DNA of 40,037 nucleotides from contig JAFMMJ010000013.1 in the NCBI GenBank assembly GCA_017859785.1, forward strand, positions 1 through 40,037. The letters are read 5' to 3'. The translations under genes and the position numbers were made by a program. A model generated the notes under the pieces. The model was not told the origin of the DNA and made no database searches. It saw only the letters and a list, made by a program, of their open reading frames with translations. Positions 11,656 to 23,676 of the stretch are shown here, piece by piece. Source of the stretch: Ilumatobacteraceae bacterium. Its GTDB lineage: Bacteria; Actinomycetota; Acidimicrobiia; Acidimicrobiales; Ilumatobacteraceae. Position 1 is the stretch's first letter; every line of letters starts with the position of its first letter.

Positions 11656-12189
11656 TCGGTCGCTGGTTGGGCAGAGGGCCCAGATACCGCGGCGAGCTGA
11701 CTTGGCCGAGGACACCGCCCGTTCGATGGTGTCGCTCAGCGCCGTGTTCGGTTCGATCGGCATGGCTCGGGCGAATCCTCGCTCGGCCATCGTCAGGGCA
11801 CTCGGTCGGTCCGAACCGGCGGGAATGACGTGAGCCAAGATCCGGCCGTAGTGATCCCGTCCGACGATCTCTCGGCGGAGCGAGACCCTTGAACCGATGG
11901 GGAGGATGACCGAGAGAGCATCCGTGGCCAGATCCGCGCCGCACTCGGCCGGTGCACCGTCGCGAGCGACCTCCGGAGTGTCGATGCCGAGCAGTCGGAT
12001 GCGCTCCGTGATGCCCGATAGCGAGGCGACGACGGTGTCCCCATCGATGACCTCGAGGATGACCGCGGTCGAGCCGTCGAGCGGCTGCGAGATGCTCGCG
12101 CAGGCGGAGCAGATGACCGCGAGGGCGGCAAGGCGGGATCTCAGAGGCGCTCGATGAGCGTGCCGGTGCCGAGTCCGCCGCCACAGCAC
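11653..12189 (-). CDS. secreted thermonuclease-like (SNase) nuclease, probable lipoprotein
   Basis: A staphylococcal nuclease fold enzyme: VIDGDTV, RIRLLGIDTPE (catalytic Arg and Glu), then DHYGRILAHV (second catalytic Arg) and the C-terminal ARRGIWAL. A basic N-terminus, hydrophobic LAALAVICSAC and a Cys suggest export, possibly as a lipoprotein, although the lipobox is imperfect. The start is uncertain: ATG 12189 overlaps the thiolase by 49 bases, while a CTG at 12144 would give a 4-base CTGA overlap with the thiolase stop. No in-frame ATG, GTG or TTG lies between. It is downstream of and co-directional with the thiolase. Would degrade extracytoplasmic DNA or RNA. Confidence 0.82.
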   Translation of the reverse strand: MLWRRTRHRHAHRAPLRSRLAALAVICSACASISQPLDGSTAVILEVIDGDTVVASLSGITERIRLLGIDTPEVARDGAPAECGADLATDALSVILPIGSRVSLRREIVGRDHYGRILAHVIPAGSDRPSALTMAERGFARAMPIEPNTALSDTIERAVSSAKSARRGIWALCPTSDR

Positions 12190-13337
12190 ATCGACACCAG
12201 TCCGAATCGGCCACCGGTGCGCTCGAGCTCGCTGAGCGCCTTGGTGAGGAGCACGCCACCGGTGGCACCGAGCGGGTGACCAAGAGCGATCGCGCCTCCG
12301 TTCGGATTGGTGCGGTCGAGATCGGCTCCGAGTTCTCGGGCCCAGGCGAGCACGACGGAGGCGAAGGCCTCGTTGATCTCGAAGGTGTCGATATCGCCGA
12401 TGCCGAGCCCGTTCCTGTCGAGAAGGCGTCGAGTCGCGTCGATCGGCCCGGTGAGCATAAGGACCGGGTCGACACCGACGAGGCAGGTGTCGACCACTCG
12501 GGCCCGCGGCTTGAGGTCGAGCGCCTCGGCTCGAGTGGCCGTCATCATGAGCAGGGCCGATGCGCCGTCGGAGATCTGAGACGAGTTGCCGGCGGTGTGA
12601 ACACCGTTCTCGCGGGCGACGGGCTTCAAGGTCGAGAGACGCTCGAGTGAAGTGTCTCGGATGCCTTCGTCGTGGGCGAGGGTGACCGTTTCACCGGTCG
12701 GCTCGCCATCTTCGCCGAGTACTGGCGCGACCACGGGAACGATCTGCGGTTCGAATCGACCTTCCGCCCGCGCGGTCGCGGCGCGCTCCTGGGATGAGAG
12801 ACCGAGACGGTCCGTGTCGTCACGAGTGATCTCCCACCGCTCCGCGATCCGCTCAGCTCCCTCGAACTGAGAGGTGAACTCGTAGTTCTCGAAGTACGAC
12901 GAGGGGATCGGGACGCCGAGTCCGAGTCGGCGGGAGGAGTTCGAACCGATGGGCACCCGCGACATCGCCTCGACACCGCAGGCCACCGCGGTGTCGACGA
13001 CACCCGATGCGATCAGCGAGTAGGCGAGCCCGGTGGCTTGCTGGCTCGATCCGCATTGGGTATCGACCGAGGTCGCTGCTGTCGTGAGCGGGAGTCCGGC
13101 GGACAGCCAGGCAGTGCGGGTGATGTTGAAGCTCTGCTCGCCGACTTGGCTGACGCACCCGCCAACGACCTGTTCGACCTCACCAGGATCGATGCCACTT
13201 CGAGCGATGAGCGCCGACAGCGCCGTGGAGAGCAGCTCGGCCGGGTGGACTCCAGCGAGGGATCCGTTGCGCCGGCCGACCGGAGTGCGGACGGCCTCGA
13301 CGATGACGACGTCTCGAGCACGTTCTGGTGTTGCCAT
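12141..13337 (-). CDS. thiolase, steroid 3-ketoacyl-CoA thiolase (FadA5)-like
   Basis: A 398-aa thiolase that cleaves a 3-ketoacyl-CoA with CoA. Nucleophile Cys95 (DTQCGSSQQATG), His354 (GGAIALGHPLG) and Cys384 (SMCCGGG) are all present, with NEAFASV and HTAGNSSQISDGAS. From memory the N-terminal half (RNGSLAGVHPAELL, GGCVSQVGEQS, ACGVEAMSRV) resembles FadA5, which acts in cholesterol side-chain beta-oxidation, more than bulk FadA; that is family resemblance, not proof. ATG 13337 follows a TAGCCT box by 6 bases. No hydratase/dehydrogenase partner is adjacent, so the pathway context is missing. Confidence 0.92.
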   Translation of the reverse strand: MATPERARDVVIVEAVRTPVGRRNGSLAGVHPAELLSTALSALIARSGIDPGEVEQVVGGCVSQVGEQSFNITRTAWLSAGLPLTTAATSVDTQCGSSQQATGLAYSLIASGVVDTAVACGVEAMSRVPIGSNSSRRLGLGVPIPSSYFENYEFTSQFEGAERIAERWEITRDDTDRLGLSSQERAATARAEGRFEPQIVPVVAPVLGEDGEPTGETVTLAHDEGIRDTSLERLSTLKPVARENGVHTAGNSSQISDGASALLMMTATRAEALDLKPRARVVDTCLVGVDPVLMLTGPIDATRRLLDRNGLGIGDIDTFEINEAFASVVLAWARELGADLDRTNPNGGAIALGHPLGATGGVLLTKALSELERTGGRFGLVSMCCGGGLGTGTLIERL

Positions 13338-13399: not shown

Positions 13400-14188
13400 T
13401 CAGGATTCGGTTCGGTGTTCGGGGCGCAGTTCGCTCATTCGACCGGCCGCCCAATCGGCGACGAAGGAGAAGCGGTCTCCTCGGAGGAGGGTCCGACGCC
13501 ACTCAACCGGTCGTCCACGATGACAACCGAGACGATCGATGCAGAACACCGCCTCGCTTTCGCTGAGACCGAGCAACGCTCTCTCGTCGGGACCGGGCAT
13601 CAGGGGGATAATCCGCTCGCGGCCTGAACCTGGCCGGCATCCTGACACCCGCTCGAGCTCGTCATAGAGCGAGGTATGGGAGAAGTCGACGTCGAGCAGC
13701 CCCGCGGCAATTGAGGCCGGCATCCACGCGCGATCGACGGCGAGCGGCTCACCTCCGGCGAGGCGGAGGCGCTCGAGAAGCACGAGCTCGCTGTCATGGG
13801 GGAGTTCGAGTCGCTCAGCGGCCTCGATATCACGTGTTGTCTCCAGGGTGAGAACCTCGGAGGTCTGGGCGAGTCCGGACGCCTCGACCACTTGGAACAG
13901 GCTGTAGAGCGAGCCGAGTGACTGCTCGAAGCGCGCGGCGTCGACCGAGGTGCCGATTCCACGGGCCCGTCGCACGATGCCGTCGGCCCCCAACTGTCCA
14001 ACCGCCTGTCGGGCCGTGTGGCGGCTCACTCCGTAGACCGTCATCAACTCCCGGTCGGTCGGGAATCGCTCGGCGAAGTCACCACGGTCGAGCCGGCGAC
14101 GCAACTCATCCTCGAGTTGAGCCCAGAGTGGCTTGGCGCTCTCTCTCGAGAGCGTCGCAGCCCCAGTCGCGAATCCGTCAGTCGTCAA
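13400..14188 (-). CDS. GntR/HutC-family transcriptional regulator, candidate regulator of the sulfur cluster
   Basis: A 262-aa regulator with an N-terminal winged helix (about 18-82: PLWAQLEDELRRRL, FPTDRELMTVYGVSRHTARQAVGQL, GIVRRARGIGTSV) and a C-terminal UTRA ligand-binding domain (about 95-255: LERLRLAGGEPLAVDRAWMPASIAAGLL, TSLYDELE). Start chosen: TTG 14188, 17 bases after the Mo-oxidoreductase stop, with GGGAG about 10 bases upstream; longer frames run into that gene. It is the last gene of the sulfur run. GT-N4-AC sites (GTCCGTAC) at both promoters of the cluster fit its DNA-binding family. The ligand is unknown. Confidence 0.88.
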   Translation of the reverse strand: MTTDGFATGAATLSRESAKPLWAQLEDELRRRLDRGDFAERFPTDRELMTVYGVSRHTARQAVGQLGADGIVRRARGIGTSVDAARFEQSLGSLYSLFQVVEASGLAQTSEVLTLETTRDIEAAERLELPHDSELVLLERLRLAGGEPLAVDRAWMPASIAAGLLDVDFSHTSLYDELERVSGCRPGSGRERIIPLMPGPDERALLGLSESEAVFCIDRLGCHRGRPVEWRRTLLRGDRFSFVADWAAGRMSELRPEHRTES

Positions 14189-14205
14189 GGTTGCTTCACT
14201 CCCGC

Positions 14206-17019
14206 TCAGGCGAGGTACGCCTCCGGAACCGGCTTGAGCGGCCGCGCGTACCACAGGGGTCGACGAAGACCGTTCGGGCCAGGTGCCGGGCGGGTCTTGG
14301 TCAACCAATCGAGGTACGCCTCGCGGCTCTTCGCTGTGTCGACGACGACATCGCCGTACTCGTCGCCTTCCTCAGCCGGGCTCACGTGCACCCGCTGGTG
14401 CCAGCACTGCATGCCCGAGATGGGATCCGGCTGCACCGCGAAGGTGAGGTTCTGGTGAACGCCGGTGTCGTTCCACCAGATGCGCTCGGTATCGGGATCC
14501 GAAGAGCTGTACGACTTCATGCCTTTCGTCCGGCGAAGTCGCCAACTCGTGCCGTCGTTGTCGATCATCGCGAGGCCGTTGCCCCAGGAACGAGCCTTCT
14601 CCTCTTCGATGCGCCAGCGACCCATGTGGTGCGAGGCCGCCACGACTCCGGGACGAATGCCCTCGGTCCTCCAGGCGGAGATCACGAAATGTCCGATCCT
14701 CGTGGACACGCGAACCAGTCCGTTCTCGGCGATGCCGAGTCGCTCGGCGTCGCTCGGATGGATCCAGAGTGGATGACGGTGAGAGATCTCGTTCAACCAC
14801 TTCGAGTTGGCCGACCGGGTGTGGATGAGCGTCGGAATACGGAATGTCGGAAGCAGGATGCGCTCTGACCCTTCGAGGTCGAGGTCCTCCCAGTGGACAT
14901 GTGAGGGAATCCACTTCGGCGTCGCGTACTCGTCCCAACCCCAGTCGCTCAGCGTGGTCGAGAACAACTCCAGCTTCTTCGACGGTGTCGGGAAGCCCTC
15001 CTTCAACTCGCCATCGACTTCGATCGCCGGCGAGCCGTCGCCGAGTTTGGCGAGCGCCAGTCCGCTGAGCGACTCGCTTGAGCCGTCCCAAGTGCCCTCG
15101 GTGCCGGGCTTGCGGAACACACCGGTTGAGTCCTTGGTGCACCCCTCGACCGCTGATGGGTCAACCGGGCGCTCGTAAGGGCGGTACGGGTCGCCGGGAA
15201 CGGCGAAGGCACCGCGGTCGCGCATGTACTCGAGCGGGCTCTGGCCGGCTTCGGTGGCCGCCTCGACGAGTCCGGGCACGCTGTCGGAGAACATGCGGCC
15301 GTAGTACTCGTCGATTCCCATCGGCGTGCCGGGACGTTCATCGCTCTCGAAGAACTTGCGGATGCCGAGCGAGCCATCCGGATCGATTCGCCAAGAGAGG
15401 TCAATCCAGAACTCGTTCTCCTCCCAGACTTCGCCGACATTGAACTGATGCGACCGCGAGTCGGGTCCGACCTCCTCGCCGTTGAGTTCGGCGTAGCGGC
15501 GCATCACCGGCTGCCGGAACCCGATCCAACGGCCGGCGTGGGTCTCGTAGGAGGCGATGTCGTGACGCTCGCTGCCAACACCCATCGGCAAGACGTAGTC
15601 AGCGAACCACGAAGTCTCCGACCAGGTGGGCGTGAGAGCGACATGACAGCCGACACGGTCGGTGTCCTTCAGCGCCTCGAGCCAACTGAACCCGTCGGGA
15701 TTGGTCCACACCGGGTTGTAGACCCGCGTGAAGTAGGTGTCGAGACGTCCACGGCCCTCGTTCAAGAAGTGGGGGAGGAGGATCGACATCTCGTGGTAGG
15801 CGAGCGGATACTCGATTGGCCAGTTGAGCTCGTTCCACTCCTTGATCGGCTGGCCGCCCTTCGGCGGAGCAGGCGTGAACTTGTTCCAGCCGTTGCCGCT
15901 GGTGCCGCCGGGCGTGCCGACCGATCCGGTCAGCACGTTCACGAAGAACAGCGTGCGGGCGACCTGCCAGCCTCCGAGGTTGCCGGCTCCGGCAGAGCGC
16001 CAGTTGTGCGAGGCGAACTTGGTGGGATGACGTCCGATGATCTCGGCGATCTCGCGAAGCGTGTCACCGGAGACGCCGCAGACGTGCTCGGCGCGCTCGG
16101 GGGTGTACTCGGCGTACTCGTCGAGCAACGCCTGTTCGAGGCTCTCGAACTCGCACGGGAGATCGGGCCGGCGCTTTTGCAGGTAGGTCTCCCAGTTCAC
16201 CCAACGCCGCACGAAGTCGCGCTCCCACGTGCCGTTGGCGATCAACAGCCGGGCGATCGTGAGCATCATGAACGCCTCGGTGCCCGGCCACGGCGCGAGC
16301 CAGTAGTCGGCCTTGGCGCCGGTGTTGGAGAGCCGGGGGTCGACGCAGATGACCGTCGCGCCTCGGGCCTTGCCCTCCATGATCCGCTGGGCGTGCGGGT
16401 TGAAGTAGTGGCCGGCCTCAAGGTGCGAGGAGATGAGGAAGATGACCTCGGCATTCGCGAAGTCCGATGAGGGGCGGTCGAGGCCCATCCAGGACTGGTA
16501 GCCGATGCGCGCGTTCGACGAGCAAATATTGGTGTGGCTGTTGTGGCCGTCAACACCCCATGCCGACAGGACCCGCTCGGTGTAGCCGTCCTCGCCGGGG
16601 CGGCCGACGTGGTACATGACCTCGTTGCCACGTCCCTCGGTGATGGCGGTGCGAATGCGGCTTCCGATCTGGTCGAGCGCCTCGTCCCAGGAGATCCGCT
16701 CCCACTGTCCTGATCCGCGCTCACCCACCCGGCGCATCGGATAGAGGATTCGCTCGGGGTCTTGAACCTGGTTGAGGGTGGCTGGGCCTTTGGCGCAGTT
16801 GCGGCCGCGGCTCGCCGGATGCTCGGGGTTGCCCTCAAACTTCGCGACTTCGCCGGTCTCCTTGTCGATGAATGCGACAAGACCACAAGCAGCCTCGCAG
16901 TTGAAGCAGGTCGTCGGGACGAGCGTGTAGTGGCGCTCGACCCGCTCTGGCCAGGCCTTGGCGTCGAGCTCGGTCCAGTCGTGCCACTTCTCGTGCGGCG
17001 GGTGGTTCATGAGTGTCAT
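14206..17019 (-). CDS. molybdopterin (Mo/W-bisPGD) oxidoreductase, SoeA-like by context
   Basis: A 937-aa catalytic subunit of the DMSO reductase superfamily. [4Fe-4S] cysteines C38, C41, C45 and C75 (C-x2-C-x3-C-x29-C). The likely metal ligand is Cys166 in HTNICSSNARIG, as in sulfur-compound and Nap-type enzymes. Large central Mo-cofactor domains and a C-terminal dinucleotide-binding barrel (about 740-900) are present. There is no twin-arginine signal, so it works in the cytoplasm. ATG 17019 has an excellent GAGGAG site 5 bases upstream. It follows the Fe-S/NrfD subunit by 31 bases. Between sulfide and persulfide oxidation genes, the best guess is sulfite:quinone oxidoreductase (like SoeA). 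Other sulfur-oxyanion or polysulfide substrates, or another reaction, are not excluded. Confidence 0.9.
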   Translation of the reverse strand: MTLMNHPPHEKWHDWTELDAKAWPERVERHYTLVPTTCFNCEAACGLVAFIDKETGEVAKFEGNPEHPASRGRNCAKGPATLNQVQDPERILYPMRRVGERGSGQWERISWDEALDQIGSRIRTAITEGRGNEVMYHVGRPGEDGYTERVLSAWGVDGHNSHTNICSSNARIGYQSWMGLDRPSSDFANAEVIFLISSHLEAGHYFNPHAQRIMEGKARGATVICVDPRLSNTGAKADYWLAPWPGTEAFMMLTIARLLIANGTWERDFVRRWVNWETYLQKRRPDLPCEFESLEQALLDEYAEYTPERAEHVCGVSGDTLREIAEIIGRHPTKFASHNWRSAGAGNLGGWQVARTLFFVNVLTGSVGTPGGTSGNGWNKFTPAPPKGGQPIKEWNELNWPIEYPLAYHEMSILLPHFLNEGRGRLDTYFTRVYNPVWTNPDGFSWLEALKDTDRVGCHVALTPTWSETSWFADYVLPMGVGSERHDIASYETHAGRWIGFRQPVMRRYAELNGEEVGPDSRSHQFNVGEVWEENEFWIDLSWRIDPDGSLGIRKFFESDERPGTPMGIDEYYGRMFSDSVPGLVEAATEAGQSPLEYMRDRGAFAVPGDPYRPYERPVDPSAVEGCTKDSTGVFRKPGTEGTWDGSSESLSGLALAKLGDGSPAIEVDGELKEGFPTPSKKLELFSTTLSDWGWDEYATPKWIPSHVHWEDLDLEGSERILLPTFRIPTLIHTRSANSKWLNEISHRHPLWIHPSDAERLGIAENGLVRVSTRIGHFVISAWRTEGIRPGVVAASHHMGRWRIEEEKARSWGNGLAMIDNDGTSWRLRRTKGMKSYSSSDPDTERIWWNDTGVHQNLTFAVQPDPISGMQCWHQRVHVSPAEEGDEYGDVVVDTAKSREAYLDWLTKTRPAPGPNGLRRPLWYARPLKPVPEAYLA

Positions 17020-17050
17020 GGGAACTCCTCGTTGGCGATCGATGTGGTGG

Positions 17051-18580
17051 TCAGGAGAGCGGGACGGACTGGCCGGCGCGGACGTAGGCGTCCTCGTAGC
17101 TGAACAGCCCGATGAGGGCGAGGAGGCCGGCAAGGGCGACCACCCCGTCAGCGAGGCCGGTGGCGAGATCGGCGTAGACGATCGCCGCTGGGGCGACGAT
17201 GCCGATCAGAATGCCGCCGATCCAGAACTTGCGCGCCTGGGCGCCTCGGGTCATCTCGAGGGTGGCGAGCTCGACGGAGCGCGAGCCCTTCGACCAGATC
17301 TCGGTGGCGAGGAGCAAGGCGAGCACACCGAGTCCGATGAGGAACGCAATCCCGACCGCGTCGGGTTCAGGAACATCCACCGCGAGGCCGAGCACGCTGT
17401 ACGTGGCGCCACCGGCCACGAGCGCCTGAGCGAGGAGGGTGGGCAGCAGGAGCGGGGTCTGCCAGAGGTCGCGTCCCTCGCACTGGCCGAAGAGGAAGGC
17501 GGTGTAGCCAGCCACGGCAGCCGCGAGGAGGATTTGAGGCAACACGAGCCACGGCAGAGCGCTGCTCAATCCGATGAGGCCGAGGAGCCCCCACAATCCG
17601 CTGACGCCGGCGAATGCGCCGAGTATCCACGCCCCACGAACCAGCCAGGAGGAGGTGTTGGAACGGGTCAGGATGTAGAGGAAGCGCTTCGGCTGCTTGA
17701 GGTCGGCGATCAGGAGCACGCCCGTGATCGCCGTGAAGACACCCGCGATCACCGCGGGGAGTAGACCGGCCGCGGTGGCCGATTCGCCGTGGCCGAGCAT
17801 GACCATGAGTGCGGCCATGATCATCGCTCCGGCGGCGATGGCCTTCGTCACGAGATAGCCCGAGACCTTCGACTTCCAGGTGATCGCGTGGGTCGTTGTG
17901 TACGCGGTTCTCGCGACCACACCCGAGCCGCTGTGCTCTTTCATGACGTTGGTGATCGTCGGGTGGTCGGGGGTGGTATCCGCCCAGATCATGCCGTCAG
18001 AGGAGATGGCGGTCCTCGTCGGGTCGAGCGAGGCCTGGTCGACTCCCCGGTAGAAGACCTTCGGGTTGGTGCCTTGCTCGGGGGCGCGCACCGCGACCTT
18101 GTCGCGAGCGACGATCTTGGAGATCTCGGAGTTGGGGTCGTCGAGGTCGCCGGTGATGATCGCGTGTGTTGGGCACACCGTCACACAGGCAGGCTCGAGA
18201 CCAACCTCCACGCGGTGGTTGCAGAAGTTGCACTTGTGCGCGGTGTTTGTTTCCGGGTTGATGTAGATCGCGTCGTAGGGGCAGGCGTTCATACAGGCCT
18301 TGCAACCAATGCAGTTGCCGTCATCGAAATCGACGACGCCGTTCGGCGCGCGGTGCAGGGCGCTCGTCGGGCAGATCGTCATGCACGGCGCGTCGTCGCA
18401 GTGGTTGCACCGCATCACCGAGAACGACCGACCGGTGTTCGGGAACGAGCCCGACTCGATGTACTTGACCCACGTGCGGTTCACGCCGAGCGGCACGTCG
18501 TGCTCGCTCTTGCAGGCCACAGTGCAGGCGTGGCAGCCAATACAGGAGTCGCTGGCGAGGACGAAGCCGAGTCGTGTCAT
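17051..18580 (-). CDS. four-[4Fe-4S] ferredoxin subunit fused to NrfD-type quinone-reactive membrane anchor
   Basis: A 509-aa fusion of the electron-transfer and membrane subunits of the Mo complex. Residues 1-140 hold four cluster motifs: C13/16/19/23, C58/61/66/70, C90/93/96/100 and C117/120/132/136. Residues about 140-235 are a soluble linker. Residues 236-500 hold eight hydrophobic helices with an NrfD/PsrC signature (LLIADLKQPKRFLYILTRSN, then SWLVRGAWIL). In most relatives (PsrB/PsrC, SoeB/SoeC) these are separate genes. No signal peptide, so the cluster domain is cytoplasmic, next to the catalytic subunit, and electrons would pass to menaquinone in the membrane. ATG 18580 has GGGGGA upstream. 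Confidence 0.92.
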   Translation of the reverse strand: MTRLGFVLASDSCIGCHACTVACKSEHDVPLGVNRTWVKYIESGSFPNTGRSFSVMRCNHCDDAPCMTICPTSALHRAPNGVVDFDDGNCIGCKACMNACPYDAIYINPETNTAHKCNFCNHRVEVGLEPACVTVCPTHAIITGDLDDPNSEISKIVARDKVAVRAPEQGTNPKVFYRGVDQASLDPTRTAISSDGMIWADTTPDHPTITNVMKEHSGSGVVARTAYTTTHAITWKSKVSGYLVTKAIAAGAMIMAALMVMLGHGESATAAGLLPAVIAGVFTAITGVLLIADLKQPKRFLYILTRSNTSSWLVRGAWILGAFAGVSGLWGLLGLIGLSSALPWLVLPQILLAAAVAGYTAFLFGQCEGRDLWQTPLLLPTLLAQALVAGGATYSVLGLAVDVPEPDAVGIAFLIGLGVLALLLATEIWSKGSRSVELATLEMTRGAQARKFWIGGILIGIVAPAAIVYADLATGLADGVVALAGLLALIGLFSYEDAYVRAGQSVPLS

Positions 18581-18623
18581 GGTTCCCCCAGTTGGGTGTG
18601 GTGCGGATGGTGCGGATGTCGGG

Positions 18624-19826
18624 TCACGCGAGGCCCTTGAGCATGAGGTTCCAGTAGAGGAACGGCAGGCCGTACTTCTTCAGGTACCACATGTCGCGGC
18701 GAGGCTTGACGGTGTTGATCACAGGAATCGAGGGGGTCCGCTTCATCGAGTAGTCGAATTCGGCGAGGAGCATCGCTTGACGCGAGGTGGTGAGCGGGCA
18801 GGAGGCGTAGCCGTGGTATTCGGCGGAGATTGAACGCCCGGACAGGTAGGCGTCGACGTTCTCTGTGACGACTGGCGCTTGCTTGCGGATCGCGGCGCCG
18901 GTCTTCGAGTTCGGGGTGCTTCCCGCGTCGCCGAGGGAGAACACGTTGGGATAGCGCACGTGCTGATGGGTGTGCTTGTCGACCTCGACGTAACCGGGCC
19001 CCTCTCCGGTGGAGAGCGGACTGTCCTTCACCCAGTCGGGTGCTGACTGGCGTGGCACAACATGGAGCAGGTCGTAGGGGAGTGTGCTGGTGCCGTTGGC
19101 CTCGCCGAGGTTGGTGACGGTGACCGTGCGGTTGGCGCTGTCGACGGCGGTGACCTCAGCTTCGGTGTGGAGGTGGATTCCGTAGCCGGCGATCACCTTG
19201 TCGAGCTCGTCGGCGATCTCGGGGATGCCGAAGGCCCGGGCGCCGGGGATAACCAGGTGGATGTCGATCTTGCCGAGCAGCCCCTGAGACTTCCAGTAGT
19301 CCGCAGCCAGGTAGGCGATCTTCTGCGGTGCTCCGGCGCACTTGATGGCTCCGGTCGGCATGGTGAATACCGCGGAGCCCGACTTGGTGCCCCGGATGAA
19401 GTCCCAGGTCTTTGGCGCGAGGTCGAAGCGATAGTTCGACGAGACTCCGTCACGGCCGAGGGTTTCGGCTAGGCCCGACATCTTGTCCCAGTCAAGTTGA
19501 ATCCCGGGGCACACGATCAGCGCGTCGTACTCGTAGACGGAGCCGTCGGAGCACTCGACGGCGTTGTCGTCGGGACGGAAGGCTGATGCCGCCTTCTTGA
19601 TCCACGTAGCACCCTTCGGCATGACCGAGGCCTCAGACCGCTCCGACGTGCTCGCCTGAGACACCCCGGCGCCGACCAAGGTCCACAGCGGCTGGTAGTA
19701 GTGCTTGTCGGAGGGCTCGATCACGGCGACGTCGCTGTGACCCTTCTTCAGCAGGCGAGCGGCGACGGAGATTCCCGCGCTACCGCCGCCGACGACGACG
19801 ATCCGGTGTTTCGCTGTGGTTGTCAT
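18624..19826 (-). CDS. sqr: sulfide:quinone oxidoreductase, type II (SQOR-like)
   Basis: A 400-aa FAD protein that oxidises H2S and passes electrons to quinone at the inner face of the membrane. FAD-binding VVVGGGSAGISVAARL at 10-25; ALIVCPGIQLDW; redox Cys163 in KCAGAPQKI and Cys343 in YASCPLTTS, the two catalytic cysteines of the SQOR (mitochondrial-like) type; SLGDAGSTPNSKTG for the second FAD contact; and an amphipathic C-terminus (YGLPFLYWNLMLKGLA) for membrane attachment. SQR of this type makes a low-molecular-weight persulfide, the substrate of the next enzyme. ATG 19826 is preceded by GGAGAGGGGG. The gene lies 51 bases downstream of the persulfide dioxygenase. Confidence 0.93.
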   Translation of the reverse strand: MTTTAKHRIVVVGGGSAGISVAARLLKKGHSDVAVIEPSDKHYYQPLWTLVGAGVSQASTSERSEASVMPKGATWIKKAASAFRPDDNAVECSDGSVYEYDALIVCPGIQLDWDKMSGLAETLGRDGVSSNYRFDLAPKTWDFIRGTKSGSAVFTMPTGAIKCAGAPQKIAYLAADYWKSQGLLGKIDIHLVIPGARAFGIPEIADELDKVIAGYGIHLHTEAEVTAVDSANRTVTVTNLGEANGTSTLPYDLLHVVPRQSAPDWVKDSPLSTGEGPGYVEVDKHTHQHVRYPNVFSLGDAGSTPNSKTGAAIRKQAPVVTENVDAYLSGRSISAEYHGYASCPLTTSRQAMLLAEFDYSMKRTPSIPVINTVKPRRDMWYLKKYGLPFLYWNLMLKGLA

Positions 19827-19877
19827 GGTCCCCCTCTCCGTTGGCGCGTCGTCCCTGCGCTGGTGCTGAATCGCGCC

Positions 19878-21257
19878 TCAGGCGCTTTGAGTCGTCTCGA
19901 TCCAGGCGCCGTATCCGCCGAGCACGTCGCTGACGTCGTTGAAGCCCCGTTGGCGAAGCAGGCTCGCCGCCACCGACGAGCGGTAGCCGCCGGCGCAGTA
20001 GATGACCGTTGGTCGGCCAGCGTCGAGCTCGTCGAGTCGAGCGGGCAGCTGGCCAACGGGAATGTTCACCGAGTCGGGCACCATGCCCGACTCGACCTCG
20101 CCCGGGTTTCGAACGTCGACAATCTGGATGTTGGCGATCTCAGCGTGGCGGTCGTTGAAGGCCTGCGATGTCAGGCGTGACGCGCGGCGGACCCGGTCGG
20201 GATTCTCAACGAGGACGCGCGTGGTGTCGCTGATCGCGCCGACGACGCGGTCGAACCCGATACGCGCGAGCCGGTTCTTCGCCTCCAATTCGTATCCGTC
20301 CTCCACGAAGAGCACGATGTCGGCGTCGCTCGGGATGATCGAACCGGCGAACTCGGCGTAGCGACCGCCAAGGCCGACGTTGATGGCGCCCTCGAGGTGT
20401 CCGAGAGCGAACTCCTCGGGGGTGCGACCGTCGACGAGCAGGGCGCCGCCGGCGATGGCGCGATCCGCCTCCTCCAGTGTGAGAGCGGCGGGAAGGGCGT
20501 CCTCGTCGAGCAGTTCGCGCTTGCGCTGATTGAGCACCGCGTCGTAGATGAAGTAACTGGGGGCCGGCGGTTGTCCGGCGGTGACCATCTCCATGAAGGC
20601 GTCTCGGCTCGGGGCGCGAAGGGCGTAATTCGTCGACTTTTGATCGCCGATGGTCGAGGTGAGCTCGGTCGAGAGGTTCTTTCCGCACGCGGAACCGGCG
20701 CCGTGGGCAGGAAACACCCGTGTTTCGTCCGGAAGGGTCATGAGCTTGTTGTGAAGGGATTCGTAGAGCTTCTCGGCCAGTTGATCCTGAGTGAAGCCGA
20801 CCGAGGTGAGCAGGTCGGGACGCCCGACGTCGCCGATGAAGAGGGTGTCTCCGGTGAGCACGCCGTAGGGCTCGGTCGCCTCGGCGCTCTCGAAGACGAC
20901 GATGCTCATCGATTCGGGAGTGTGGCCCGGCGTGTGGCGGAACTCGAGCACGACTTCTCCGAGGCTCACTCGCTCGCCGTCGGACATCTTCCGGTGCTCA
21001 AACTCGGGGTTCGCGATGGCGGAGTAGCAGATCTCCGCGCCGGTGGCCGCGGCGAGTTCGAGGTGCCCGGAGAGGAAGTCAGCGTGGAAGTGGGTCTCGA
21101 TGACCATCTCGATGGTGAGGCCGCTCGCCTCCGCGTCGGCGAGGTACTGAGCGATGTCGCGCTGGGGATCGACGACAACCGCTCGGCCGCTGGTCTCATC
21201 GCCGATGAGGTACGAGGCGTGGGAGAGACATTCGAGGTAGTACTGCTGGAACTTCAT
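19878..21257 (-). CDS. persulfide dioxygenase fused to two rhodanese domains
   Basis: A 459-aa fusion. Residues 1-240 are an ETHE1/PDO-type metallo-beta-lactamase fold with Fe ligands and motif residues H56, H58, D60, H65 (THFHADFLSGH), H112 (HTPGHT), D137 (TGDTLFIGDVGRPD) and H185 (FPAHG). It oxidises glutathione- or mycothiol-type persulfide to sulfite and free thiol. Rhodanese domain 1 (about 262-345) lacks the active cysteine: VLFVEDGYE sits where the catalytic loop should be. Domain 2 (about 365-455) has Cys421 in YCAGGYRS and should be active. ATG 21257 has a GAAGGAG site 6 bases upstream. It is the first gene behind the TTGACC-17-TAAATT promoter, and is translated with SQR and the Mo complex. 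Confidence 0.93.
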   Translation of the reverse strand: MKFQQYYLECLSHASYLIGDETSGRAVVVDPQRDIAQYLADAEASGLTIEMVIETHFHADFLSGHLELAAATGAEICYSAIANPEFEHRKMSDGERVSLGEVVLEFRHTPGHTPESMSIVVFESAEATEPYGVLTGDTLFIGDVGRPDLLTSVGFTQDQLAEKLYESLHNKLMTLPDETRVFPAHGAGSACGKNLSTELTSTIGDQKSTNYALRAPSRDAFMEMVTAGQPPAPSYFIYDAVLNQRKRELLDEDALPAALTLEEADRAIAGGALLVDGRTPEEFALGHLEGAINVGLGGRYAEFAGSIIPSDADIVLFVEDGYELEAKNRLARIGFDRVVGAISDTTRVLVENPDRVRRASRLTSQAFNDRHAEIANIQIVDVRNPGEVESGMVPDSVNIPVGQLPARLDELDAGRPTVIYCAGGYRSSVAASLLRQRGFNDVSDVLGGYGAWIETTQSA

Positions 21258-21283
21258 CGGAACTCCTTCGTCGTGTCCTTGTG

Positions 21284-21312
21284 AATTTAGAGGTACGGAC
21301 ATTTCGGGTCAA
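21284..21312 (-). promoter_or_regulatory. sigma70-type promoter of the sulfur operon
   Basis: On the minus strand TTGACC (21312-21307), a 17-base spacer and TAAATT (21289-21284). This is one of the best -35/-10 pairs in the window. One GTCCGTAC site (21293-21300) sits in the spacer. The promoter overlaps the stop codon of the carbonic anhydrase gene and drives persulfide dioxygenase, SQR, the Mo complex and GntR. Confidence 0.7.
21293..21300 (-). promoter_or_regulatory. operator candidate GTCCGTAC, copy 1 (spacer)
   Basis: Minus strand AATGTCCGTACC lies between -35 and -10 of the sulfur operon promoter. The GT-N4-AC spacing matches operators of GntR/HutC-type regulators. Copies 1 and 2 are 27 bases apart in the same orientation. 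Confidence 0.55.
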
Positions 21313-21926
21313 GGGATTGGTACGGACAAAGCGGGAGATTCACCGGCGGGGCCCTCCTCGGTGATCTCGATGAGCCGTCCCGTGGCGAGATCGTGAACTG
21401 CGCCCCGAAGCACAGCGCGCCCCTCGGCGATCGCGTTGCCGAGAGGCCCGCGGTTCCGGCGCAACCGACGAAGGTTGTGGGCGACGTTGGCGGCGACGGC
21501 GGCATCGAGGTCGCCATCGCAGGACTGGCAGGCGGCGAGCATCTCGTCGATGGGCGCGAGGATCGGAGCGAGCACCGGCGCGAGCACGGGGTCCGGGCTG
21601 TCGTCGAGCGCGGCGCGCACGGCACCACAGTTCGTGTGTCCGAGCACGACAACGAGACCGCAGCCAAGATGCTCTACCGCGAACGTGAGGGATGCCACCG
21701 CCCCGGCGGTCGCGCTCGACCCGGCGATCCGGACCACGAAGAGACTCCCGGCGTCTTGGCCGAAGAGCACCGACGGTGGAACGCGCGCATCCGAGCAGGC
21801 GAGTACGGCCGCGGCCGGGTTGTGGTCGGCGACCGTGCCGTCGTAGCCGTGGGTCGCCACATGCTCGTCATGGCGTCGCACGAGCTCCGCCCAGACAGCA
21901 TCGGCGGTTTCCCGATGCTCAGACAC
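21309..21926 (-). CDS. beta-carbonic anhydrase
   Basis: A 205-aa zinc enzyme interconverting CO2 and bicarbonate. Zinc and catalytic residues: Cys44-Ser-Asp46-Ala-Arg48 (ACSDARVP), His97 and Cys100 (GHTNCGAV), a complete set. Start GTG 21926 overlaps the SulP stop by 8 bases and has GGAGGAG 4 bases upstream. Pairing with SulP is known elsewhere for bicarbonate transport; here it stands next to sulfur genes, so either role is possible. The 3' end carries an operator candidate and the -35 box of the next operon. Confidence 0.93.
   Translation of the reverse strand: MSEHRETADAVWAELVRRHDEHVATHGYDGTVADHNPAAAVLACSDARVPPSVLFGQDAGSLFVVRIAGSSATAGAVASLTFAVEHLGCGLVVVLGHTNCGAVRAALDDSPDPVLAPVLAPILAPIDEMLAACQSCDGDLDAAVAANVAHNLRRLRRNRGPLGNAIAEGRAVLRGAVHDLATGRLIEITEEGPAGESPALSVPIP
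21320..21327 (-). promoter_or_regulatory. operator candidate GTCCGTAC, copy 2 (upstream of -35)
   Basis: Minus strand TTTGTCCGTACC, 8 bases upstream of the TTGACC -35 box. It lies inside the last codons of the carbonic anhydrase gene, so the site has been kept within coding sequence. Confidence 0.5.
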
Positions 21927-23640
21927 CGCTCTCCTCCAGCCCCGCGGCGCGACGATCGCCAGGGGCGGGTTCCGCCGAGCCGGTGATGAGCTCGACCGCC
22001 TGGTGCGCGGTCGCGTGTAGCCGCCCGTCGAGGCGCTCCCATAGGCCGGCTCGTCGAAGCACATCGCGAACCGGACCTTTGACGTCGCAGAGGTGAAGCA
22101 CGACGGGGGACTCGTCGAGGTCGGTGAGGATCTCCGCGAGCGTCTCGGCCCCGGTCGCGTCGATGTCGTTGATTCCAGAGCAGTCGAGGACGAGCGCTCG
22201 GGGCTCGGTCTGCAACTGGGCTGCCCGGTCACCGAGGAGACGCTTGACGTGCTGAGAGTTCACGAACGAGAGCGCGGCGTCGATGCGGACGATGTCGATA
22301 CCGGGAATCGTCTCGGCGTCAGGGAAGCGCTCGAGGTTCCGCCAGCTCGTCGTGCCAGGAATGCGGCCGAGCACAGCGGTGTGGGGCTTGGACATTCGGG
22401 CAAACACCACGAGCATCGACGCGACGACCGCGACCCCGATACCCACCTCGATGCCAAGGATCAGCGTGGCGAAGAACGCGACTCCGAGACCGACGAGGTC
22501 GGTTCGCTTCACAGCAGCGATGTGTCGCATCTCGGCGATATCGACGAGGTTGATGACCGCGACGATGATGATCGCGCCGAGTGCCGCCTTCGGCAGATTC
22601 TCGAAGAGCGGGGTGAGGAGCGCGATGGTGATGAGAACGATCACCGCGGTGATGACACTCGCGAGCGGAGTTCTCGCTCCGGCTGAATCGTTGACGGCTG
22701 TCCGCGAGAAGCCGCCGGTCACGGGATAGCCGCCGAAGAGTCCCGCGGTCACGTTCGATGCCCCGAGGGCGACGAGTTCGCGGTTTGCTTCGACGTCGTA
22801 CCGATGGCGGCGGGCGTACACCTTGGCGACGGCGATGGACTCCATGAAGCCGACGAGGGTGATCACCAACGCTGTGGGTAGGAGGTCGGCGATCGCTCCG
22901 CTGCCGAAGTCAGGCAGGGCAAACATCGGAAGGGAGTCAGGGATCGAGCCGACGGTGGCGACGCCGCTCGATCCGAGGTCGGCGAGTGTGACCACCACGG
23001 TGGTAGCGATCACGACAACCAACGCGCCGGGCACCCGTCGGGCGACGCGCTTCAGGACGAGCAGAAGCGCGACGCTTCCGAGCCCGATCGCCAGGGTGGT
23101 CATATCGGTGCCGCCGATCACTGAGAGCACTTCGGTGACCGTCTCGTGGAAGTGGTCGGTGCGGGGTACCGAGACGCCGAGCAGATGCTTGACCTGCGAG
23201 AAGCCGATGATGATCGCCGCGGCAGCGGTGAAGCCGACGAGGACGGAGTGCGACAGGAAGTTCACGACAAATCCGAGCCGTCCGAAGCCGAGCACGAGGT
23301 GGGCCGCTCCGACGAGGAGGGCGAGCAGCGCCGCTGCCGATATGTAACCGGCGGTGCCCTGCTCGTAGAGGGGGGCGAGCGCCGATGCCGTCAGAAGCGA
23401 GACGATGGCGACGGGGCCGACAGCGAGTTGGCGCGAGGTGCCGAGAAGGGCGTAGGCGAGCAGCGGGAGAGTGGACGCGTAGAGGCCGATCTCCGGGGGA
23501 AGGCCGGCGAGCAGTGCGTAGGCCATTCCCTGGGGGACGAGCATCGCCCCGATCGTCAAACCTGCGGCGAGGTCTGGGCGCAGGTCGTCGCGGTGATAAG
23601 CGCGGATCCAACTTGGGGCGAGAGATCGACCGAGATTCAC
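21919..23640 (-). CDS. SulP-family anion transporter with STAS domain
   Basis: A 573-aa inner-membrane permease of the SLC26/SulP family, which carries sulfate, bicarbonate or other anions. The transmembrane core (about 25-430) contains AAGLTIGAMLVPQGMAYALLAGLPPEIGLYAS in conserved form; a cytoplasmic STAS domain (about 450-550: VRIDAALSFVNSQHVKRLL, LVLDCSGINDIDATGAETL) follows. Start chosen at GTG 23640: TACATT lies 7 bases upstream and TTGACC 17 bases further. The frame can be extended to 23676 but that covers the promoter. Next to the sulfide-to-sulfate genes it may move sulfate; next to carbonic anhydrase, bicarbonate. Cargo is not decidable from sequence. Confidence 0.92.
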   Translation of the reverse strand: MNLGRSLAPSWIRAYHRDDLRPDLAAGLTIGAMLVPQGMAYALLAGLPPEIGLYASTLPLLAYALLGTSRQLAVGPVAIVSLLTASALAPLYEQGTAGYISAAALLALLVGAAHLVLGFGRLGFVVNFLSHSVLVGFTAAAAIIIGFSQVKHLLGVSVPRTDHFHETVTEVLSVIGGTDMTTLAIGLGSVALLLVLKRVARRVPGALVVVIATTVVVTLADLGSSGVATVGSIPDSLPMFALPDFGSGAIADLLPTALVITLVGFMESIAVAKVYARRHRYDVEANRELVALGASNVTAGLFGGYPVTGGFSRTAVNDSAGARTPLASVITAVIVLITIALLTPLFENLPKAALGAIIIVAVINLVDIAEMRHIAAVKRTDLVGLGVAFFATLILGIEVGIGVAVVASMLVVFARMSKPHTAVLGRIPGTTSWRNLERFPDAETIPGIDIVRIDAALSFVNSQHVKRLLGDRAAQLQTEPRALVLDCSGINDIDATGAETLAEILTDLDESPVVLHLCDVKGPVRDVLRRAGLWERLDGRLHATAHQAVELITGSAEPAPGDRRAAGLEESGV

Positions 23641-23647
23641 GCCGCAG

Positions 23648-23676
23648 AATGTACGGACATTTGCTCCCGAGGTCAA
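23648..23676 (-). promoter_or_regulatory. sigma70-type leaderless promoter of sulP
   Basis: Minus strand TTGACC (23676-23671), 17 bases, TACATT (23653-23648), then 7 bases to GTG 23640. The GTCCGTAC operator candidate runs into the -10 box. The -35 sequence and spacing are the same as at the sulfur operon promoter, which suggests joint control. Confidence 0.7.
23651..23658 (-). promoter_or_regulatory. operator candidate GTCCGTAC, copy 3 (sulP)
   Basis: Minus strand AATGTCCGTACATT, a near palindrome (12 of 14 bases symmetric) overlapping the sulP -10. A repressor bound here would block polymerase. It shares AATGTCCGTAC with copy 1. Confidence 0.55.

Follow-up and report, generated by a model that had tools for sequence, protein, structure and literature searches.

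A probable GntR-linked sulfide-oxidation gene cluster with a predicted SoeABC-like, cytoplasm-facing sulfite:quinone oxidoreductase in an Ilumatobacteraceae bacterium

The Acidimicrobiia are an abundant group, and one isolate of this class, Salinilacustristhrix, was reported to grow on sulfide and to release thiosulfate; in such sulfide-growing members a sulfide:quinone oxidoreductase (SQR) alone was identified, and the sulfur was followed no further than thiosulfate (PMC11697166). Whether an organism of this class could carry the sulfur on to sulfate is the question raised by a gene cluster at 13400-23640 of a 40,037-nucleotide stretch of DNA (the window) from an Ilumatobacteraceae bacterium (assembly GCA_017859785.1, contig JAFMMJ010000013.1), whose draft genome of 1.96 Mb is 98.8% complete in 114 contigs. 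A first-pass annotation of the window had proposed a complete cytoplasmic sulfide-to-sulfate pathway in this single cluster. Our analysis indicated that the cluster is probably a repressor-controlled sulfide-oxidation regulon with a SoeABC-like cytoplasmic sulfite:quinone oxidoreductase. The earlier interpretation was thus partly supported: the molybdenum (Mo) enzyme did not group with formate or arsenic enzymes and the cluster was not confined to one genome, while the completeness of the pathway and the product of its dioxygenase had to be tempered.

Seven intact and complete open reading frames were found, all on the minus strand and in the 5' to 3' order SulP, beta-carbonic anhydrase, persulfide dioxygenase (PDO)-rhodanese, type II SQR, Fer4/NrfD fusion, Mo subunit and GntR/UTRA regulator, exactly the co-directional set and the families named in the first-pass annotation. 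The probable starts of SulP, the Mo subunit, PDO and GntR were internal to long reading frames. Pfam matches exceeded the curated cut-offs for Sulfate_transp, Pro_CA, Rhodanese, Lactamase_B, Fer4_11, NrfD, GntR and UTRA, and for three domains of the Mo-bis(pyranopterin guanine dinucleotide) (Mo-bisPGD) type in the Mo subunit. None of the NCBIfam equivalogs fitted the Mo subunit, the fusion or SQR, so these three stand outside the curated families; the best equivalog for the Mo subunit was PhsA, with 186 bits against the 694 required.

The catalytic subunit (14206..17019, minus strand, 937 amino acids) is a SoeA-like Mo-bisPGD protein with an N-terminal 4Fe-4S site and no twin-arginine translocation (Tat) signal. 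Its predicted Mo ligand, Cys166 (codon at 16522..16524, minus strand), aligned with the Cys of Thermus PsrA and is followed by Ser, not His. This Ser was found in 66/66 members of the clade that shares the fused anchor (the fused clade), whereas FdhF shows Cys-His at this position of the alignment, so the clade lacks the pair typical of formate dehydrogenases. In the tree, the family formed its own clade (support 100) outside PhsA, PsrA, ArrA, TtrA, YnfE and formate dehydrogenase, by a quick method with long branches and with partial PsrA and ArrA rows. Grouping with formate or arsenic enzymes, which the first-pass annotation had considered fatal to its reading, was not observed, and both identities were rejected on the active site and the tree separation. 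Of the enzymes named there for a phylogeny, SoeA, PsrA, PhsA and TtrA, the last three were in the tree and fell outside the family. By structure modelling, the nearest folds to the Mo subunit were arsenate and polysulfide reductases. The models of the two proteins, built from shallow alignments in which plasmid-record rows were left out, were of moderate quality (mean pLDDT 69 and 61) and were used for fold and helix count only. No named SoeA was found in the PDB, the fetched loci or the 120 listed of 783 plasmid records, and several plasmid loci considered as SoeA candidates all proved to be other Mo enzymes. In some members of the class, a NarJ/TorD-like chaperone gene directly followed the Tat-less Mo gene (L053:7814-8647).

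The partner of the Mo subunit is a single polypeptide composed of an N-terminal SoeB-like ferredoxin domain (17936..18580, minus strand), whose 16 invariant Cys correspond to four 4Fe-4S clusters, and a C-terminal SoeC-like NrfD domain (17051..17935, minus strand) of eight transmembrane helices with its N-terminus inside and its positive loops on the ferredoxin side. The structure model of the fusion contained eight confident helices, and Foldseek matched PsrB, ActC and PsrC all within the one chain. The first-pass annotation had reported no Tat signal on either subunit, which was confirmed here for the Mo subunit and the iron-sulfur domain; the motif was also absent from 66/66 Mo subunits of the fused clade, while all 9 examined homologues from Campylobacterota and Aquificota carried it. 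The cytoplasmic orientation deduced earlier from the missing signal gained independent support from the anchor charges. The eight helices of each NrfD domain were placed and the Lys and Arg residues in the loops were counted: anchors of the fused clade had a mean of 11.6 on the ferredoxin (N-terminal) side against 1.6 on the opposite side, in agreement in 53/54 sequences (the lone exception was a fragment truncated at the edge of its contig), whereas anchors of the Tat clade had 6.4 and 13.0, reversed in 11/11. The positive-inside rule thus places the fused ferredoxin domain in the cytoplasm and that of the sister clade outside. With no Tat signal and this anchor orientation, the enzyme of the fused clade is predicted, by computation only, to face the cytoplasm.

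The exported sister complex, which occurs in Campylobacterota and Aquificota (L095-L164, with 36-42% identity), belongs to the same Mo-subunit family and shares the invariant SHTN(I/V)CS motif, but it differs in having separate iron-sulfur and NrfD genes, a TorD chaperone, a Tat signal and the opposite anchor charge. In the tree it fell inside or beside the fused clade, on a long branch and with weak placement. The separate genes and a TorD-like gene were seen in L095, L109, L125, L131, L142, L146, L148, L149 and L155, and in two Aquificota loci (L142:404-4500 and L146:462-4543) the Tat-type complex adjoined another Mo enzyme that also bears a Tat signal and has a ferredoxin with 15 Cys. Campylobacterota dominated the matches listed in a scan of genome contigs for Mo homologues. 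A reading of their homologues as Tat-less was rejected, since it came from a Sulfurovum mangrovi plasmid copy (L078:7974-11172) that is frameshifted or mis-assembled, and complete copies have the signal; an Azoarcus plasmid homologue was likewise Tat-bearing. SoeC was previously the only suspected inverted member of the NrfD family (PMC8076601), and the two sister clades with opposite anchor charge offer a clear example of inverted membrane topology in that family.

Compared with SoeABC of Allochromatium vinosum and Aquifex aeolicus, also reported in Sulfobacillus, the complex shares a Mo-bisPGD subunit with an N-terminal 4Fe-4S site, a Cys-type Mo ligand and no Tat signal, a four-cluster ferredoxin, an eight-helix NrfD/PsrC-type anchor, the cytoplasmic orientation and a context of sulfur oxidation. 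Differently, the B and C subunits are fused here, the gene order is BC-A, and the genes lie with those for a CstB-type PDO, type II SQR, SulP and GntR. Since SoeABC has a separate eight-helix NrfD-type subunit and the NrfD domain here is joined to the ferredoxin domain, the enzyme was named SoeABC-like and not SoeABC. Reports of SoeC are limited to Proteobacteria, Aquificae and Clostridia (PMC8076601), and for Sulfobacillus an SoeABC has been described that is induced by S0 and has an anchor of the NrfD/PsrC type (PMC5114278).

The type II SQR (18624..19826, minus strand, 400 amino acids) had human mitochondrial SQOR as its best solved relative in phmmer (327 bits; flavocytochrome c at most 57, type I SQR 45), and both catalytic Cys aligned with those of the human enzyme, which established the type assigned earlier. 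PDO (19878..21257, minus strand, 459 amino acids) has the CstB architecture of a metallo-beta-lactamase (MBL) dioxygenase, a pseudo-rhodanese and an active C-terminal rhodanese; it aligned over its full length with Staphylococcus aureus 3r2u, which we take to be CstB, and with Alicyclobacillus 3tp9, and the MBL metal ligands and both Cys were present. The claim that PDO makes sulfite therefore held for its identity as a persulfide dioxygenase but less so for its product: thiosulfate is released by CstB (PMC9774590), which the protein resembles, and free sulfite is thus not the sole expected product.

A route from sulfide to sulfate can be proposed from these assignments. At the membrane, SQR would oxidise H2S to persulfide and pass the electrons to quinone, and the CstB-like dioxygenase-rhodanese would convert persulfide and O2 to sulfite, part of which could be joined to sulfane sulfur to give thiosulfate. 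Together, the Mo subunit and the fused ferredoxin-NrfD anchor would form a two-polypeptide SoeABC-like enzyme facing the cytoplasm, in which sulfite would be oxidised to sulfate and two electrons transferred via five 4Fe-4S clusters to quinone. SulP would carry an anion across the membrane; the simplest case is sulfate export, possibly against bicarbonate, on which the coupled carbonic anhydrase would act. Both the substrate of the Mo complex and the direction of its reaction are inferred; sulfite is supported by the cytoplasmic side, the quinone anchor, the four-cluster ferredoxin, the sulfite-producing neighbour and SulP, and the sulfite:quinone activity of the fused clade as a whole is likewise a prediction from sequence. 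No match to SoxB, DsrA or ATP sulfurylase (Sat) was detected in the 98.8%-complete assembly, so direct oxidation of sulfite is the simplest exit. RuBisCO also had no match in this assembly, and Calvin-cycle autotrophy is therefore not indicated.

A promoter scan of the cluster revealed 4 sigma-70-like sites in 10.6 kb against 0.7 expected, two of them on the minus strand immediately before sulP (TTGACC-17-TACATT, 23648..23676) and before the pdo-sqr-Mo-gntR unit (TTGACC-17-TAAATT, 21284..21312). These two predicted promoters point to two transcription units rather than one. The last gene of the second unit (13400..14188, minus strand) encodes a GntR/UTRA (HutC-type) regulator, with the GntR helix-turn-helix and the UTRA domain both above the Pfam cut-offs, and its in-frame TTG start at 14188 fitted the point where homologue alignments begin. 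A conserved candidate operator, AAATGTCCGTACATT, overlapped both promoters. Copy 1 (AATGTCCGTACAT, 23649..23661) overlapped the -10 element of the sulP promoter, copy 3 (AATGTCCGTACCT, 21291..21303) lay in the spacer of the pdo promoter, between its -35 and -10 elements, and copy 2 (TTTGTCCGTACCA, 21318..21330) stood just upstream of copy 3, all on the minus strand. The pattern TGTCCGTAC, present on both promoters, occurred in 3 copies in the window against 0.15 expected, a number reached by 0/100 shuffles. Genome-wide, WWTGTCCGTACNW occurred 4 times in 1.96 Mb and the reversed control pattern 0 times; three of these sites were in the cluster and the fourth was at a YeeE/YedE gene pair on another contig, which placed all four at sulfur genes. 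The fourth site overlapped the start codon of this split sulfur-transporter pair, which is apparently leaderless (L180:5155-6107, contig C75).

The same operator preceded both sulP and pdo in the four nearest relatives, and it was located upstream of sulP in L031-L034, L190, L191 and L194. Elsewhere in the family and order it preceded pdo, sulP or the GntR gene, also at loci free of the Mo pair that carried pdo-sqr-gntR or sulP-pdo-gntR. Across 41 family genomes, 38 sites were counted against 9 for the reversed control, and several of the remaining family sites were at no recognised sulfur gene. The simplest reading is that the operator is a candidate binding site of the linked GntR/UTRA protein, which would repress both promoters through it until a sulfur metabolite releases the protein; binding and effector are both predicted here. 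No paper tying a GntR protein to the control of SQR or PDO was found in the open-access literature. The operator provides a simple handle for finding the regulon and for testing what the repressor senses.

Lack of conservation in relatives had been named as an outcome that would overturn the first-pass reading. Instead, the association recurred in relatives, in other actinobacterial classes and in other phyla. The fusion and Mo genes were paired in 40/40 examined loci of the class, and other sulfur genes stood beside the pair in 22/40, including PDO-type MBL (19), SulP (10), DsrE (9), TusA (7), YeeE (4) and SQR (2), with DsrE, TusA and Sulf_transp neighbours verified by Pfam. Among 296 class genomes, PDO was present in 51/77 with the Mo subunit and in 71/219 without it (odds ratio 4.1; Fisher p 4e-7, uncorrected for relatedness), and type II SQR was present in 16, 11 of which had the Mo subunit. 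In a phylum-wide sample the Mo subunit was detected in 40/397 genomes, about 10% of the sampled actinobacterial species. At 12 loci from actinobacterial families outside the class, the Mo subunit was adjacent to SulP in 10, PDO in 5 and SQR in 4, with DsrE, TusA and YeeE in 2-3 each. Beyond Actinomycetota the pair was distributed in Chloroflexota, haloarchaea and Firmicutes; the genomes that carry it also include those of Bacillaceae, Alicyclobacillus ferrooxydans, Nitrospinota, Deltaproteobacteria and Caldilineales. It was plasmid-borne in Thermomicrobium roseum, in Rhodococcus jostii RHA1 (on pRHL3, beside PDO, DsrE and TusA) and in haloarchaea (beside rhodanese-MBL and a TauE sulfite exporter). 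The notion of a complete pathway in a single cluster had to be tempered: the genes are co-directional and share one operator, but two transcription units were predicted, and the cluster is not a fixed unit, given the loci without SQR or other sulfur genes considered below.

Several observations weigh against the proposed regulon. Type II SQR was absent in 2/4 nearest relatives, and 18/40 class loci carried no other sulfur gene near the Mo pair. Thiosulfate is the product of CstB (PMC9774590), and Salinilacustristhrix supplied with sulfide releases it as well (PMC11697166). A SUOX-fold protein of 538 amino acids on contig C87 (L181:1262-2878), which scored far below the SorA and SorT cut-offs and also below that of SoxC, is a possible second sulfite oxidase and might act on sulfite instead. 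The likeness to SoeABC was drawn from features and context, and the superfamily neighbours PsrA and PhsA are reductases. They are the closest characterised members by sequence and, by fold, follow ArrA, and several cytoplasmic PsrA-like enzymes of Campylobacterota have been read as sulfur reductases (PMC10045233). An alternative is that the complex works in the opposite direction, as a reductase of polysulfide, sulfur or thiosulfate in the cytoplasm, with quinol electrons reducing the persulfide or thiosulfate from SQR and PDO for redox balance or anaerobic respiration. We consider this improbable, because PDO needs O2, which makes the module aerobic, because the TauE sulfite exporter, SulP, TusA and DsrE neighbours of the relatives match oxidisers, and because the clade is separate from PsrA/PhsA in the tree. 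A more plausible alternative, though still an unlikely one, concerns the main flux and not the enzyme, and overlaps with the preferred explanation: the regulon would serve mainly sulfane-sulfur and thiosulfate handling or detoxification, with the CstB-like enzyme ending at thiosulfate, YeeE importing it and the Mo enzyme mopping up stray sulfite. The CstB product, the fourth operator site at YeeE/YedE, the dispensability of SQR in relatives and the missing RuBisCO match all favour it, but it would leave unexplained why PDO is so closely associated with the Mo complex and SulP in different classes.

Two further explanations concern single components. An NrfD group including Actinobacteria and Chlorobi was tentatively labelled formate:quinone oxidoreductase (FqoABC); this group, FqoC1, with 59 actinobacterial species, was assigned from FdnGH homology (PMC8076601). 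We infer that the fused clade is FqoC1, whose share is similar to the 10% seen here, but a formate enzyme with an incidental sulfur-gene neighbourhood is very improbable in view of the Cys-Ser active site, the distance from FdhF in the tree and the sulfur-specific operator and synteny. The other explanation concerns the cargo of SulP (21919..23640, minus strand), a SulP/SLC26-type anion transporter of 573 amino acids with a STAS domain, which passed TIGR00815 (sulP) with 491 bits against a cut-off of 380. The beta-carbonic anhydrase gene (21309..21926, minus strand, 205 amino acids) overlaps the sulP stop by 8 nt with its GTG start, and fusions of SulP with carbonic anhydrase are known in the family. 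The two could form a bicarbonate uptake pair that has nothing to do with sulfate and is under the same control because CO2 fixation driven by sulfide requires inorganic carbon. This is rather doubtful, since the best solved relative of SulP was Arabidopsis SULTR4;1 (366 bits) and the cyanobacterial BicA reached 85 bits, since no RuBisCO was matched, and since a carbonic anhydrase beside SulP was confined to close relatives (L034, L194 and weakly L032), while in other actinobacterial classes SulP lies directly 3' of the Mo gene without it. The likeness to SULTR4;1 and the position after the Mo gene favour sulfate as the cargo, still unproven; with the coupled carbonic anhydrase, sulfate/bicarbonate exchange may be an option.

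The proposed sulfide-oxidation regulon resembles two known systems. The cst system of S. aureus (CstR, CstA, CstB and SQR) likewise places a CstB-type dioxygenase-rhodanese and SQR under one repressor for sulfide handling, but it relies on the persulfide sensor CstR, whereas the present cluster has a putative GntR/UTRA repressor with a new operator and additionally encodes SulP, carbonic anhydrase and a membrane-bound Mo enzyme predicted to act on sulfite. The mitochondrial sulfide oxidation unit (SQOR, ETHE1, rhodanese and SUOX) performs the same four reaction steps with a type II SQR; mitochondria use SUOX and cytochrome c for the sulfite step, in contrast to the quinone-linked Mo-bisPGD complex predicted here. 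The probable sulfite-oxidising role of this widespread, uncharacterised fused Mo enzyme was previously unrecognised in these organisms. A broader proposal, on which we are evenly divided, is that Actinomycetota, Chloroflexota, Firmicutes and haloarchaea share a large, so far overlooked clade of sulfite:quinone oxidoreductases that consist of two polypeptides and face inward. The anchor would be inverted relative to the Tat-exported sister and its orientation locked by the ferredoxin fusion, and in this lineage the enzyme would be controlled by a GntR-type sulfur repressor that is itself new and has an operator of its own. If true, a conserved cytoplasmic sulfite oxidase in about one in ten of the actinobacterial species sampled would provide the last step that is missing, the tentative formate-dehydrogenase label of such complexes would be corrected, and many organisms would be added that surveys with proteobacterial SoeA markers may miss.

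Downstream of the GntR gene, a steroid 3-ketoacyl-CoA thiolase gene was located at 12141-13337 of the window. The same gene followed in all four nearest relatives (L031-L034), which indicated that the chromosomal place of the cluster is fixed.

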